The notes under the pieces: model-generated
Told to the model about the DNA's origin: nothing
Database searches by the model: none
What the model saw: only the letters and a program-made list of their open reading frames with translations
Position numbers and translations under genes: made by a program
Source: Hyphococcus sp.
GTDB lineage: Bacteria > Pseudomonadota > Alphaproteobacteria > Caulobacterales > Parvularculaceae
Length of the DNA stretch: 64,000 nucleotides
Assembly (NCBI GenBank): GCA_028289605.1
Contig: JANQON010000006.1
Span: 62,001-126,000, forward strand
Direction of reading: 5' to 3'
In this document: one piece after another, positions 21,893 to 61,172 of the stretch
How the letters are laid out: the number at the start of each line of letters is the position of its first letter
Position numbering within the stretch: the first letter of the stretch is position 1

Positions 21893-21976
21893 CCGCTCAT
21901 CCCGGCGAAAGCCGGGATCTCATCCAGACTACATCACCAGGCGGCGGGAGATCCCGGCTTTCGCCGGGATGAGCGG
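21893..21976. repeat. Palindromic repeat, family A, copy 1
   Basis: Inverted repeat whose outer ends are CCGCTCATCCCGGC and GCCGGGATGAGCGG, with smaller internal palindromes (GGCGAAAGCC type) in each arm, so it can fold into two hairpins. Related copies lie at 29232, 55864 and 59503, with a half copy at 53548. Confidence 0.85.
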
Positions 21977-29231: not shown

Positions 29232-29302
29232 CCGCTCATTCCCGCGAAAGCGGGAATCCACAGCATCCGCTTTTGGATCCCCGCTTTCGCGGGGATGAGC
29301 GG
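29232..29302. repeat. Palindromic repeat, family A, copy 2
   Basis: Outer ends CCGCTCATTCCCGC and GCGGGGATGAGCGG, each arm with an internal palindrome of the GCGAAAGC type. It lies between the NtrC-type gene and gapR, where transcription converges, and could end both transcripts. The remaining bases of 29164-29387 show nothing else. Confidence 0.85.
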
Positions 29303-39650: not shown

Positions 39651-39772
39651 GCCGTAGTCCCTGCAAATGCAGGCCAAAGGTCAGCGCATTCGCTTAACAA
39701 AGCGTTGCGCGAGCATGCTTAGATTAATCCATCAGCGGATTTGACAGCCCATCCTTCGAGACGCGCAAATTC

Positions 39773-39838
39773 CTTCATCCTGAGGAGGCCGATAGGCCGT
39801 CATGAAGGACGAAGGAATTTGCGCTCCTCAGGATGAAG
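39773..39838. repeat. Palindromic repeat, family B, copy 1
   Basis: Ends CTTCATCCTGAGGAG and CTCCTCAGGATGAAG, with an inner GGCCGATAGGCC palindrome. Nearly the same 66-68 base unit occurs at 44571-44638 in the opposite orientation. The gap 39651-39885 holds no gene. Confidence 0.9.
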
Positions 39839-44570: not shown

Positions 44571-44638
44571 CCTTCATCCTGAGGAGAAATTTCGCCTTCG
44601 TCCTTCGTGACGGCCTATCGGCCTCCTCAGGATGAAGG
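44571..44638. repeat. Palindromic repeat, family B, copy 3
   Basis: Ends CCTTCATCCTGAGGAG and CTCCTCAGGATGAAGG. Reverse-complemented it matches copy 1 almost base for base, including the inner GGCCGATAGGCCGTCA and GAAGGACGAAGG segments. It sits just after the Lrp gene and may end its transcript. Confidence 0.9.
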
Positions 44639-54966: not shown

Positions 54967-55854
54967 CTAACTCTTCCGTGCAAAAACAAAATCCGCAGCG
55001 CCTTTCAGCGGCGCAGCGGCGTCGCCGAAGCGATCAAGATGCGCTTTGCATGAGTCGACGAGTTCTGCGGCCTTTGCCTTGGCGCCGTCCATACCGAGCA
55101 GCTTAATGAACGTCGCCTTGTCCATCTCCGCGTCCTGCCCGGCGGGCTTGCCGAGGGTTTCCGCATCCTGGGTCGCATCGAGGATGTCGTCGACAATCTG
55201 GAAGGCGAGGCCCAGATCCTCCGCATAGGCTGAAAGGGCCGCGACGTCCGTCTCGGAGCCCTCCCCGACAATGCCGCCGCCGACGGCGCCGAAACGGATC
55301 AGCGCGCCGGTTTTAAGACGCTGCAATTCCTCGATCCCGGCGAGGTCGAAGTCTTTTTGTTCGGCGTAGATGTCGATCATCTGTCCGCCGACCATGCCTT
55401 CCTTGCCGCTGGCCCGGGCCAGTTCCAACGCCAACCGGCAGCGCACGTCGCCGCTCGGATGGGTCGTCTCGTCCGCCAGGACTTCGAACGCCTGGGTCAA
55501 CAGCGCGTCGCCGGCGAGAATCGCCGTCGCGTCGTCGAACTTTTTGTGCACTGAAGGACGGCCGCGGCGCAGATCGGAATCATCCATCGCCGGCAGATCG
55601 TCGTGGATCAGCGAGTAACAGTGGATCATTTCCACCGCGCAGCCGACGCGGATCGAGCGTTCCCGCGGCGCCTCAAACATATCCGCCGCAGCGATCACCA
55701 GGAACGGCCGCAGGCGCTTGCCGCCGTCGAGAGCGCCCCAGCGCATGGCGCCGGCGACCCGGCCCAACGGACCGTTCCCGGCCGGCAGGAACTGATCCAG
55801 CGCCTCTTCGATGAGGCCCGCGGTTTCTTTAATAGTTGATTGGAATTCGGACAT
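54967..55854 (-). CDS. ispA: Farnesyl diphosphate synthase IspA
   Basis: Makes farnesyl diphosphate, the branch point to squalene/hopanoids, carotenoids and quinones. The 295-residue protein has GGKRLRPFLVIAA, the first Asp-rich motif LIHDDLPAMDDSDLRRGRP, and the second, FQIVDDILDATQD, with the two-residue insertion typical of bacterial FPP synthases. It sits among hopanoid genes; CrtE at 2396-3334 is a separate, longer-chain paralogue. Confidence 0.93.
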   Translation of the reverse strand: MSEFQSTIKETAGLIEEALDQFLPAGNGPLGRVAGAMRWGALDGGKRLRPFLVIAAADMFEAPRERSIRVGCAVEMIHCYSLIHDDLPAMDDSDLRRGRPSVHKKFDDATAILAGDALLTQAFEVLADETTHPSGDVRCRLALELARASGKEGMVGGQMIDIYAEQKDFDLAGIEELQRLKTGALIRFGAVGGGIVGEGSETDVAALSAYAEDLGLAFQIVDDILDATQDAETLGKPAGQDAEMDKATFIKLLGMDGAKAKAAELVDSCKAHLDRFGDAAAPLKGAADFVFARKS

Positions 55855-55863
55855 GGTGCTGAT

Positions 55864-55936
55864 CCGCTCATCCCGGCGCAGGCCGGGATCTCCTGCAAAG
55901 TAAAAACCAGATTCCGGCCTGCGCCGGAATGAGCGG
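55864..55936. repeat. Palindromic repeat, family A, copy 3
   Basis: Outer ends CCGCTCATCCCGGCG and CGCCGGAATGAGCGG, with GGCGCAGGCC-type inner palindromes. It lies immediately upstream of ispA, within ten bases of the ATG, so it may affect the ispA leader. Confidence 0.85.
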
Positions 55937-55967: not shown

Positions 55968-56639
55968 TTACCGGCGCGTTACGAATCCTTCGCCGTCGCA
56001 AGCCTCGCAGGCGCGGGCGATGAGGCCGCGCTTGCCCCGTCCGTCGCAGTCGCCGCAGACGGCGCGGCTCATTTTGCCGGCGCCCATAAACCGCGCGAGC
56101 ATATCCGCGTCGCTTGCGCCGCCGCCTTCGATCCGGGGCGGCGCGACGTTTTTGGCGAACCGGCGGGCCGCTTCCAGTTTGGCGGCTGGAAAAGCGTCCG
56201 TCAGCGATGATGATTCGCCCGTCAGCCCGTGCAGGCAGACAGCGAGATCGCGACGCCATTGCTCAATCAGCAGGTTGAACTGCGTCTCATCGAACGCGCC
56301 CACCACCTGCATGCCGGCCATCAGGAAAAGGTCATTGTTTTCAATTGTTGCGACCGAGATATGAAGGTTTCGGTTTAGCCCCTCAACCGTATCAGCGGTG
56401 ACCGGAAACCCGACGAAACGCGCCAGAAAGCCTAACTCCGCGACCTGTCCCGACCCCGGCGCGGTCTGCATCATCGCAATGACGAAATTCACCCCATGGT
56501 CCTGAACGCCATAAACGCTGAGCGGGCCGTCCTCACCCAGGAGGTCGACGTCCCCGAACCGGGCCGTGAGCGCGGCCACAACTTTTTTCATCGGCCAGGA
56601 CGCCTCGCCCTGGTCGCCGCCGGAAAACAATTTCAGCAT
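55968..56639 (-). CDS. Hypothetical protein with a C-terminal DnaJ-type zinc cluster
   Basis: A 223-residue protein. Residues 1-150 are a soluble alpha/beta domain (a YbjN-like or secretion-chaperone-like fold is possible, from GVNFVIAMMQTAPGSGQVAE and NRNLHISVATIENNDLFLMA). The C-terminus has two CxxCxGxG units, CGDCDGRG (195-202) and CEACDGEG (211-218), which should bind one zinc as in DnaJ. I do not recognise the family. It lies between ispA and ispH in the hopanoid region. Confidence 0.65.
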   Translation of the reverse strand: MLKLFSGGDQGEASWPMKKVVAALTARFGDVDLLGEDGPLSVYGVQDHGVNFVIAMMQTAPGSGQVAELGFLARFVGFPVTADTVEGLNRNLHISVATIENNDLFLMAGMQVVGAFDETQFNLLIEQWRRDLAVCLHGLTGESSSLTDAFPAAKLEAARRFAKNVAPPRIEGGGASDADMLARFMGAGKMSRAVCGDCDGRGKRGLIARACEACDGEGFVTRR

Positions 56640-57931: not shown

Positions 57932-59116
57932 ATGTCAGTTTCCCTGCATCAGCAAGCTCGCGTCGGCGCCTATGTGATGAAACAAACGCTGATGGGCCGG
58001 AAGAAGTATCCGCTGGTTCTGTTCCTAGAACCCTTGTTCCGATGCAATCTCGCCTGTCCCGGCTGCGGCAAGATCGATTACCCGGCGCCGATCCTGAACA
58101 AGCGTTTGTCCGTAAAGGAATGCCTGGACGCCGTTGACGAATGCGGGGCGCCGGTCGTGGCCGTCCCGGGCGGCGAGCCGCTGATCCACAAGGAAATCGG
58201 CGAAATCGTCGAAGGCATCGTCAAGCGCAAGAAATTCGTTTCGCTGTGCACCAACGCCCTGTTGCTTGAAAAGAAATTGCATCTGTTCAAGCCGTCGCCC
58301 TTCCTGTTCTTTTCCGTCCACCTCGACGGCCTGGAAGAAGAACACGACAAGGCGGTGGATCAGAAAGGCACGTTCCAGATTGCCGTAAAGGCGATCAAGG
58401 CGGCGCAGGAAGCCGGCTTCCAGGTCAACGTCAACGCAACGATCTTCGACAATATGACGGCGAAACAGGTCGCCGATTATCTTGATTTCGCCACCGATCT
58501 CGGCGTCAATATCTCGATCTCGCCAGGCTACGCCTATGAGCGCGCCGAAGACCAGGACCATTTCCTGTCGCGCAAAAAGACCAAGGAACTCTTCCGCGAC
58601 GTGTTCCGCATCGGCAAGGAGCGCGGACGGGAATGGAACCTGTCGCACTCGTCGCTGTTCCTGAACTTCCTCGCCGGCAATGAACAGTATCACTGCACGC
58701 CCTGGGGCTCGCCGACGCGCAACGTCTTCGGCTGGCAAAAGCCGTGCTACCTCCTGGGCGAAGGCTATGTCTCTTCGTTCAAAGAGCTGATGGAAACCAC
58801 CGAGTGGGATCAGTACGGCACCGGCAAATACGAAAAATGCGCCAACTGCATGGCCCATTGCGGCTATGAGCCGACGGCGGCGATGGATGCTGTGAAGAAT
58901 CCGATGAAGATGTTCCGTATCCCGAACATGTTCAAGATCAAGACTGAAGGACCGATGGCGCCGGAAATCGATCTCTCGAAAGCGCGGCCCGCCGTCGACA
59001 TGCACGAACAGCTCGTCGCCGACGAGATGGACAAGATCCGCCGCGACAAAGAAGAAGCCGCCGAGCGCAAGCAGGCGGCGACGCTGATCGACAAGACCAA
59101 GGAAGCCGCCGCTTAA
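57932..59116 (+). CDS. hpnH: Adenosyl-hopene transferase HpnH (radical SAM)
   Basis: Adds the adenosyl group to diploptene as the first step to the C35 hopanoids. The 394-residue protein has the radical SAM cluster motif FRCNLACPGCGKIDY (C38, C42, C45), AVPGGEPLIHKEIGEIVEG, and a C-terminal Cys region CANCMAHCGYEPTAAMD. The C-terminal 50 residues are a charged tail. It converges on hpnG with a 4-base overlap of the two stops. Confidence 0.94.
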   Translation: MSVSLHQQARVGAYVMKQTLMGRKKYPLVLFLEPLFRCNLACPGCGKIDYPAPILNKRLSVKECLDAVDECGAPVVAVPGGEPLIHKEIGEIVEGIVKRKKFVSLCTNALLLEKKLHLFKPSPFLFFSVHLDGLEEEHDKAVDQKGTFQIAVKAIKAAQEAGFQVNVNATIFDNMTAKQVADYLDFATDLGVNISISPGYAYERAEDQDHFLSRKKTKELFRDVFRIGKERGREWNLSHSSLFLNFLAGNEQYHCTPWGSPTRNVFGWQKPCYLLGEGYVSSFKELMETTEWDQYGTGKYEKCANCMAHCGYEPTAAMDAVKNPMKMFRIPNMFKIKTEGPMAPEIDLSKARPAVDMHEQLVADEMDKIRRDKEEAAERKQAATLIDKTKEAAA

Positions 59117-59901
59117 GGCGCCAACGCCTTTTCAAGCTGCGCAAAAATCGCCGGCAGGTCGCGCCGCAATCGCGCCAGGGCCTTGTTTGAATCCGATCCA
59201 AGCTGCATCAGCGCCGGGAATTGTCCCGGCGCCTTCGCTGCTTCCCACAGCGTTTTGAGAACCCGGGTCGAACCGTCCGGCGCCACTGCGCCAAGCGCCG
59301 CCAGCGGCAACGCCCGGTCCGCCGGATCTGCGATGGCGCGAACTGCAATGAACGGAACGCCAGCCTCCGCCGCCGCTCTTGCGGCGCCGTGACTTTCCAT
59401 GTCGACAGCGACGGCGGCGCTGGAAGCAAACAATTCTGATTTCGCGGCAACGCTGTCGATGATGGCGTCTGAGCCGTAGAGGACGCCTGAGGTCACTCTA
59501 ATCCGCTCATCCCGGCGCCCCGCGCGCGAAGGCGCGCCAACGGAAAAGCCGGGATCTCCATCGGATTTCTCGGTGTGTTGCGCGAGGTCCCGGCTTTTGC
59601 CGGGATGAGCGGAGGTTAACTGAGACAACAACTCCGCATCCGCCTCAAATCGTGAACCCTCTTCCACAACCACCGCCTCACCAATCACCAAATCCCCCGG
59701 CGCCAGCGCAGGATCGAGCCCGCCGGAGACGCCAACGGAAACAACCGCCGCGGCGCCGTTAGCGCACGCCGCCCGCGATAGCTGATAGGCGCGCTGCGCA
59801 TCGGCGCCGGAAATTTCGACACGGATGGATTCGCCGCCAACAGTGTTGCGCACGACGTCGGCTTCGGACTTGAGACCGCAAATGACGGCGATGATTGTCA
59901 A
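59113..59901 (-). CDS. hpnG: HpnG, hopanoid nucleoside phosphorylase, with a repeat-encoded insertion
   Basis: Removes adenine from adenosylhopane. The 262-residue protein has the phosphorylase fold: VSVGVSGGLDPALAPGDLVI, then VAVDMESHGAARAAAEAGVP for nucleoside binding, and AVRAIADPADRALP. Residues about 97-134 (AHPGKSRDLAQHTEKSDGDP and on) are encoded by a family A repeat read in frame; without it the protein would be about 224 residues, closer to normal. Start overlaps the hpnE stop (ATGA). Confidence 0.88.
   Translation of the reverse strand: MTIIAVICGLKSEADVVRNTVGGESIRVEISGADAQRAYQLSRAACANGAAAVVSVGVSGGLDPALAPGDLVIGEAVVVEEGSRFEADAELLSQLTSAHPGKSRDLAQHTEKSDGDPGFSVGAPSRAGRRDERIRVTSGVLYGSDAIIDSVAAKSELFASSAAVAVDMESHGAARAAAEAGVPFIAVRAIADPADRALPLAALGAVAPDGSTRVLKTLWEAAKAPGQFPALMQLGSDSNKALARLRRDLPAIFAQLEKALAP
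59503..59612. repeat. Palindromic repeat, family A, copy 4, inside hpnG
   Basis: Outer ends CCGCTCATCCCGGC and GCCGGGATGAGCGG, with an inner AAAAGCCGGGATCT/GGTCCCGGCTTTT pairing. At 110 bases it is the longest family A copy, with an extra GCGCGCGAAGGCGCGC palindrome in the left half. It is read in frame without a stop within hpnG. Confidence 0.9.
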
Positions 59902-61172
59902 TTTGCGGACGCCTTCAACGCCAACGCCGCCGCCCGGTCTCCCGACCGGATCGACCCCTCGATCGTCGCCGGCACCCCGGTGTTCGTGTGGTCGCCCGCG
60001 AGAAACAGGTTCCGATAGGCCGTTTCCGGCTTCAACCGTTTGCGGATCGCCGCCGGGGACTGATCCGGCGTTGCGCGTTTTTCCCGGATGACACGCACCC
60101 GCTCATATTCCGGTTCGTCAAGGTCGAGGGCGATGCGGGTCTCTTTCCAAATCTGCGCGACCACTTCCTCGTTCGGCGTGTCGTCTGCCCCGAGCGCGTC
60201 GGCGGCCGACGTCGTAACCGAGGCTACATCGTCGCGGGTGAACACCCACTGGCCGAGACTGCCGATAAGGGCGATGAATGCGCTGTCGGACGAGCGGCGA
60301 TTGCGATAGCGCTCAGAGAGACGAAAGTGGACATTGAGGATAGACGCATCGTCCGCTGGCGGATCGAATGCCGGCATCAATTGTTTCAGCCTCGTCGGCG
60401 GAACGGCCAGGATTACGTGATCATCTTCTTCCAGGACGATGCTCTCATCGGCGAAATTGAGCCGCGCCGCAGCGCCGCCTTCGATCCACACTTCGCGCAC
60501 CCGTGCATTAAAACGAACGACCCCGCCGCGTTGCTCCAAAAACGCGAGGGCGGGATCGATAAAGGCGGGGCCAAGCCCGGCGCGGGCGACCAGCGGGGTC
60601 GACGCGGCGCCGCCGAGCAGAAACGTCTCGCGAATGACGCTCCACAAGAGTTTGGCGGAACCGCGCGCCGGCGTCGTGTTCAGGACCGCAAGCGTCAAAG
60701 GCTCCCAGAAGTTTTCAAATAACGGCGAGCTTTTGTCGACAATGTCCGCCACGGTTTTATCGGAGCCCGCGAGCGCGATGCCGGCCGCCTTCACATAGTC
60801 CAAAAGCCCAGTATTGGGCACGCGGGTCTCCTCATTGAAGACCCAGGACGGAAACCATCCGTCATTGATGCGGACCGCCCAGCGCTCTTTGGTCCGTACA
60901 TCAATGAACGGATAGACGGCGCCATCGGGCCAGATGAGGGGCTTTGGCGAGGCGATCCGGTCAAGATAGGACAACGCCGACTTGTTGCCCGACATGATCA
61001 GGTGATTGCCGTTGTCGATATCGCGCTCAAGATGCTTGTCGAAAAAGGTCCGGCAGCGCCCGCCGGCCTGCCCGGCGCTTTCATAAAGCGTCACCGGAAC
61101 GCCCGCCTCGGTCAGGCGGACGGCGGCGGCGAGACCGGATAGGCCGGCGCCGATGATGTGTACGCGCCCCAT
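59898..61172 (-). CDS. hpnE: Squalene-forming FAD oxidoreductase HpnE
   Basis: Reduces hydroxysqualene to squalene in the HpnCDE route. The 424-residue flavoprotein begins VHIIGAGLSGLAAAVRLTEA and has FFDKHLERDIDNGNHLIMSG, a stretch typical of HpnE, and the C-terminal FAD region LFLAGDHTNTGVPATIEGSI. It overlaps the hpnG start by 4 bases and follows hpnD after 5 bases. Confidence 0.94.
   Translation of the reverse strand: MGRVHIIGAGLSGLAAAVRLTEAGVPVTLYESAGQAGGRCRTFFDKHLERDIDNGNHLIMSGNKSALSYLDRIASPKPLIWPDGAVYPFIDVRTKERWAVRINDGWFPSWVFNEETRVPNTGLLDYVKAAGIALAGSDKTVADIVDKSSPLFENFWEPLTLAVLNTTPARGSAKLLWSVIRETFLLGGAASTPLVARAGLGPAFIDPALAFLEQRGGVVRFNARVREVWIEGGAAARLNFADESIVLEEDDHVILAVPPTRLKQLMPAFDPPADDASILNVHFRLSERYRNRRSSDSAFIALIGSLGQWVFTRDDVASVTTSAADALGADDTPNEEVVAQIWKETRIALDLDEPEYERVRVIREKRATPDQSPAAIRKRLKPETAYRNLFLAGDHTNTGVPATIEGSIRSGDRAAALALKASAN

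Follow-up and report, generated by a model that had tools for sequence, protein, structure and literature searches.

A CGTC-REP-like palindrome inserted in frame in hpnG at a recurrently used site, with GIY-YIG nucleases as its likely mobilisers

The hpnG gene of a Hyphococcus species carries a palindromic repeat that is inserted in frame, at a place in the gene where gains or losses of such inserts have recurred across the genus. It was found in the window, by which we mean the whole stretch of 64,000 nucleotides that was analysed (GenBank assembly GCA_028289605.1, contig JANQON010000006.1, positions 62,001 to 126,000). We consider it likely that the insert is a non-autonomous dimer resembling the CGTC-type REPs, which HpnG tolerates, which landed at a recurrent site and which a cognate GIY-YIG nuclease mobilises in trans. 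The relevant features of the window are as follows, in window coordinates.

59113..59901, minus strand: hpnG (hopanoid-associated phosphorylase), 262 aa from a TTG start, from the open reading frame and profile matches
59503..59612, no strand: palindromic insert, a head-to-head dimer of CGTC-REP-like units with tag GCTC, through which hpnG reads in its minus-strand frame
59584..59612, minus strand: right unit of the dimer, first in the reading direction of hpnG, with GCTC tag, 8-bp stem, 4-nt loop and CTC tail
59503..59559, plus strand: left unit of the dimer, in which a nested GC-rich hairpin widens the loop (59517-59547)
21893..21976, no strand: paired copy of the same family as the hpnG repeat, CTC-tail subtype, outside any long frame
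29232..29302, no strand: paired copy, CCCGC / CCA-tail subtype, outside any long frame
55864..55936, no strand: paired copy of the repeat between ORFs 54967-55854 and 55968-56639, outside any long frame

The start of hpnG overlaps the stop of hpnE (59898-61172). An earlier note on this DNA had placed a 110-base palindrome without a stop in the hpnG frame at 59503-59612, and coordinates and frame hold exactly; the inverted repeat encodes HpnG residues 97-133, not 97-134 as that note had it. The insert is probably translated in vivo. The product exceeds the family cut-off of PF01048 and is matched by the HpnG profile TIGR03468 in two separate stretches (182.4 bits, cut-off 187.1). About five host codons are absent to the right of the insert relative to uninserted relatives, and the insertion is therefore not purely additive. 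The unit at 59584-59612 has the stem ATCCCGGC with a 4-nt loop, and because the nested hairpin in the other arm adds 27 nt, the hpnG copy exceeds the commonest length of 84-87 nt. The single-strand fold of the repeat has a z of -5.7. With home-made unit and palindrome detectors, the unit was matched seven times in the window, where chance would give 0.05, and a looser unit pattern gave 272 matches in the genome compared with nine for a reversed control pattern.

In the parts of Di Nocera et al. (2013, PMC3733652) that describe them, CGTC REPs have a terminal unpaired CGTC motif (with TGTC and CCTC variants), an 8-9 bp stem starting with AT, a 4-5 nt loop and a 3-nt tail that is mostly CCA; they are predominantly head-to-head dimers, abundant in Alphaproteobacteria, and include dRS3 of Neisseria and RPE-4/RPE-6 of Rickettsia. 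The same parts place them mostly between genes and sometimes within them, more than half of the intragenic inserts encoding 20-30 residues, mention two Xanthomonas recB genes with CGTC repeats at about one site, and state that these repeats seem to be without a dedicated transposase. The family studied here shares the 8-bp stem beginning with AT, the 4-nt loop, the head-to-head dimers and the mostly intergenic, partly intragenic distribution. It differs in its nested hairpin, in its tag (GCTC instead of CGTC) and, in the hpnG copy, in its tail (CTC instead of CCA). It is this tail that leads us to call the hpnG element CGTC-REP-like rather than a member, CCA being the tail of most CGTC REPs and so not strictly defining.

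The other window copies had been described as intergenic, and indeed no frame around the three paired ones extends beyond 42 codons on each side, compared with 163 and 129 for the hpnG copy. Among 127 merged sites of the genome, 82 were paired and 45 single, the single sites including chance matches; the tag was GCTC in 132 of 133 units, and 94 of the sampled units had a CTC tail and 23 a CCA tail. Further in-gene copies, a search proposed in the earlier note, were sought among the 82 paired elements of the sampled loci, which comprise the zero-mismatch sites and some one-mismatch sites rather than all 272 matches. Of the 75 that were scorable, only two lay in a single open frame that looked coding to the left and to the right of the element, namely the hpnG copy and one flanking a GIY-YIG gene (L146). 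A third (L011) gave weak coding scores on either side and is interrupted by a stop. A Pfam scan of ten candidate in-gene ORFs gave no match for eight, and the GIY-YIG and GNAT matches of the others begin past the element. In-gene copies thereby look rare in this genome, where diverged copies may be missed, and the GIY-YIG case led to the candidate mobiliser discussed below. Several kinds of nested hairpin were seen within the loops of elements of the hpnG family, hereafter family A (L002, L005, L013, L025, L162 and others), so that palindromes seem to insert into palindromes. Of the 76 ends of 38 dimer spacers, 12 carried the inner motif C[AG][TG][GA][AC]GG where about 0.1 would be expected, as did three of four CTC-type cassettes, but since these spacers are a subset fitting one regular expression and the motif was picked after inspection, a shared inner motif is only suggestive.

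To follow the site across the genus we compared 28 Marinicaulis-like genomes of the Parvularculaceae (27 and our own), all but one of which (G005) gave an HpnG match. Over the compared proteins, Marinicaulis flavus (L068) is identical to locus L040 of G022, and the named records with such identity also include Marinicaulis or Parvularculaceae MAGs. The HpnG allele is uninserted in 15 of the 27, with a segment of 100 nt in 13 and 97 nt in two, and a palindromic insert is present in ten (G000, G001, G004, G009, G010, G015, G022, G024, G025 and G027). G003 holds an insert at the same codon that is no longer palindromic as a whole and that we term decayed because a simple palindrome detector gives nothing there; the segment of G008 has a non-palindromic lengthening of 24 nt. 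The codon position at which the insert starts is common to ten family-A alleles, nine palindromic ones and that of G003, and the insert of G024 belongs to a different palindrome family whose unit CCTTCATCCTGAGGAG matches 40 sites in the G024 genome with at most one mismatch. Net insert lengths ranged from 60 to 108 nt, and all ten measurable inserts were divisible by three and free of stops; the locus of G001 (L059) ends at a contig edge and was excluded from this count, and with it in-frame inserts occur in 11 genomes. Most inserted alleles lack some host codons on the right of the insert, which in G010 look complete. A second palindromic element was seen in L059 just upstream of hpnG, at about 410-480.

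The earlier note had proposed to look for a gap at this place in other HpnG proteins. Outside the genus, palindrome arms of at least 12 nt were found at the HpnG site in none of 43 distinct segments (38 of 55-109 nt and five of 118-139 nt), and arms of 10-11 nt in six of the 43 and in two uninserted alleles of the genus. Insertion in frame of a mobile palindrome, as proposed in that note, is supported. On a locus tree built from HpnH, HpnE and HpnG without the insert, the distribution needs five gains or losses, at least four of which are forced by well supported branches, and a single origin was recovered in none of 200 bootstraps. An HpnG-only tree needs seven gains or losses, at least three of them forced, and a single clade of all inserted alleles is rejected (AU p=0.0007). 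That the uninserted alleles are uniform in length speaks for gains, at least between the three main groups. On the locus tree, six inserted species group in one clade, which is explained equally well by repeated insertion and by one insertion whose element changed later.

We then modelled HpnG with AlphaFold2 from 44 aligned HpnG proteins. The model has the fold of MTA/SAH nucleosidase (MTAN) / futalosine hydrolase with a mean pLDDT of 90.6, and residues 111-129, in a loop between helix 88-97 and strand 135-142, fall below 50. The surface loop proposed in the earlier note is thus modelled as a disordered loop on a confident fold, whereas a usefulness of the loop found no support: nothing shows a benefit of the insert to HpnG. 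Species differ in the sequence and length of their inserts and even in the palindrome family, which fits tolerance, and we conclude that the loop is probably tolerated.

Three other readings of the HpnG insert were weighed. A single ancestral gain within the genus followed by several losses, the insert drifting in sequence or being overwritten by conversion from other genomic copies, would account for the common left junction of the ten family-A alleles and for the clade of six inserted species. We regard it as unlikely, since the 100-nt segment shared by 13 of the 15 uninserted alleles would require losses to be precise and repeated, the inserted alleles are rejected as one clade, and one allele carries an unrelated family. 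That the same site recurs, with frame and openness preserved in every measured case, could be read as selection for a loop that gives HpnG a new function or regulation; such an adaptive insertion is quite improbable given that neither sequence, net length nor family is conserved, that the loop is modelled as disordered and that 15 of 27 congeners do without it. Decay of hpnG into a pseudogene in which the insert persists neutrally could be suspected from its TTG start and from a TIGR03468 score slightly below the cut-off, but it is the insert that splits the profile match, the frame of the host part is open, 27 alignment columns are invariant between it and 43 other HpnG proteins, and the inserts are in frame in 11 genomes, so that we give this reading hardly any credence. 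Insertion of a mobile, tolerated dimer at a recurrent site is the reading we retain.

To find what might move the dimer, we searched the genome for the transposases of RAYT-REP systems (REPtrons), which are Y1 enzymes of the HUH type. PF01797 (Y1_Tnp) had no match in this genome and was positive in control genomes, and a RAYT was ruled out as mobiliser of the repeat. The genome has six GIY-YIG genes, three short ones of which have palindromes on both sides, each of another family. The short genes are as follows.

L177: short GIY-YIG gene, flanked by family A, the family of the HpnG insert
L180: short GIY-YIG gene, flanked by family B, the family of the G024 insert
L176: short GIY-YIG gene, flanked by family C
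L179: fourth short GIY-YIG gene, with one weak palindrome on one side

Two units of family B, unrelated to the hpnG repeat, also lie in the window at 39772-39815 and 44595-44638. Across the genus, palindromes were present within 250 bp of short GIY-YIG genes upstream in 34 of 66 cases, downstream in 21 of 65 and on both sides in 13 of 65, compared with 0 of 20 and 1 of 17 for UvrC and 13 of 232 for random windows; the regions L229, L232, L245, L248 and L249, which had no match with the profile, were left out. The repeats follow the protein subfamily. Non-syntenic GIY-YIG pairs have a flank repeat in common in 0.1% of 847 cases below 40% identity, in 84.9% of 73 at 70-80% and in 94.7% of 19 above 80%, and the 242 flank-sharing pairs observed compare with a mean of 89 and a maximum of 129 in 1000 permutations. 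Units of the HpnG subtype (GCTC/CTC) flank a TNKxYGVLYTGMTDD subfamily (L224, L235 and L241, the last with ACTC in place of one tag and CTA in place of one tail, and L300 outside the genus), GCTC/CCA units flank an ASKKNGTLYIG(M/S)TDD type and true CGTC/CCA units a GVTSDL-like type. This association of units with particular GIY-YIG subfamilies is an observation; that the nuclease is the mobilising enzyme is likely. In L224, L235, L300, L311 and L323 the GIY-YIG gene lies inside a single head-to-head pair, so that the HpnG element looks like such a cassette minus its gene. No CTC-type cognate was found in our genome, whose only family-A cassette has CCA-tail units; it does occur in the close relatives G015 and G001. 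Further subfamilies have palindromes of their own, of the GCCTCGAAGGA type at L179, L191, L213, L219, L223 and L287 (also outside the genus), the AGCCGTGGGGAGTCG type at L236 and L247 and the CGGGATCG type at L239 and L240.

Beyond the genus we analysed 44 relatives of the family-A nuclease, made up of 30 loci from a class-wide search (our own copy included) and 14 of 31 records from a plasmid collection. A CGTC-like unit lay within 200 bp of 17 of the 44, on both sides in 13, one of which is our own copy, compared with 8 of 422 control windows and with 0 of 13 and 1 of 27 control ORFs. The strict unit pattern was absent at the remaining 27. A Neisseria gonorrhoeae GIY-YIG gene (L333, NZ_CP119140.1) has dRS3-type units of the CGTCATTCCCGCGAAAGCGGGAATCCA type on either side; its record is as large as a chromosome but bears the label plasmid. 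In Azospirillum lipoferum 4B (L334), a GIY-YIG cassette flanked by dimers separates sufB and sufC, and it is absent in all four relatives compared (A. ramasamyi, A. oryzae, Azospirillum sp. B510 and A. thermophilum). Matching flanks of the suf locus are 90-97% identical between A. lipoferum and these relatives, showing the presence or absence of one whole cassette in Azospirillum; the sequence of the gap differs. In a phylum-wide sample, from which L284, L288, L295 and L296 were left out as having no match with the profile, palindromes accompanied short GIY-YIG genes upstream in 5 of 25 cases and downstream in 4 of 25, against 9 of 118 random windows. With so little enrichment we limit the pairing to certain subfamilies. 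Many GIY-YIG proteins, YhbQ-like ones, are not partners of palindromes, and the YhbQ-like members of this sample are mostly unflanked. The candidate mobiliser belongs to the fold family of UPF0213 / GIY-YIG single-domain nucleases (PDB 1zg2), from whose YhbQ-like members it differs in its flanking palindromes. In literature on GIY-YIG with REPs, palindromes or inverted repeats, on dRS3, RAYT and REPINs, and since 2013 on CGTC REPs and transposases, the pairing was unreported among the matches listed, a coverage that largely leaves out subscription journals and preprints.

GIY-YIG genes and palindromes are both multicopy and mostly intergenic, and many GIY-YIG genes have no units, as would be expected if both merely tended to settle in intergenic junk DNA, with the palindromes spreading by other means, such as replication or repair errors on hairpins. 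Such a coincidence would have to produce the match of family to subfamily over non-syntenic loci, the match of tag and tail, genes inside single dimers and a cassette present or absent as a whole, and we think it improbable. In the mechanism we favour instead, the elements would be mobilised in trans by small GIY-YIG nucleases whose genes lie between cognate units or have them on their flanks, and a dimer would be what remains once the nuclease gene is missing, perhaps through internal deletion. Such a head-to-head dimer of CGTC-REP-like hairpin units would have entered HpnG between helix 88-97 and strand 135-142, where it would be translated as a disordered loop of about 37 residues that the enzyme tolerates. 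Elements would land or be replaced at this position repeatedly, and the palindromes found there differ between related species.

The arrangement resembles REPtrons, in which a small gene for a DNA-processing enzyme is flanked by repeats thought to be spread by the enzyme, and differs in that the enzyme here is a GIY-YIG nuclease and not a Y1 HUH transposase. Rickettsia elements inserted in frame are described in part of a review (PMC10969869), and like those palindromic elements (RPE) the hpnG repeat is a palindrome in frame within a protein gene and read through. The host differs and the families are mostly others, and the likeness to Rickettsia drawn in the earlier note stands through the CGTC grouping, which in the account of PMC3733652 includes RPE-4/RPE-6. 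In-frame palindromes are thus known from Rickettsia. Our elements are set apart from CGTC REPs as published by their GIY-YIG association and by having hit a single coding site repeatedly in one genus; the earlier note missed that recurrent use and the likely role of GIY-YIG genes as mobiliser.

More broadly, and with somewhat less assurance than for the HpnG insert itself, we think it probable that there is a widespread class of mobile element built as unit, GIY-YIG nuclease, unit, in which a single-domain enzyme recognises and spreads its own hairpin family and of which CGTC-type REP dimers (dRS3, RPE-4/6 and the HpnG insert) would be the gene-less offspring. If so, CGTC REPs would gain the mobiliser that they were reported to lack, coding palindromes would be explained, and palindrome families B to F would each have their own GIY-YIG subfamilies. 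What moves palindromes of the CGTC kind has been an open question, and a GIY-YIG gene matched to the palindrome family allows it to be tested directly. At the HpnG site, for its part, a single genus provides empty, filled, nested and decayed alleles as a natural series in which the acceptance of a foreign loop by a protein can be studied.
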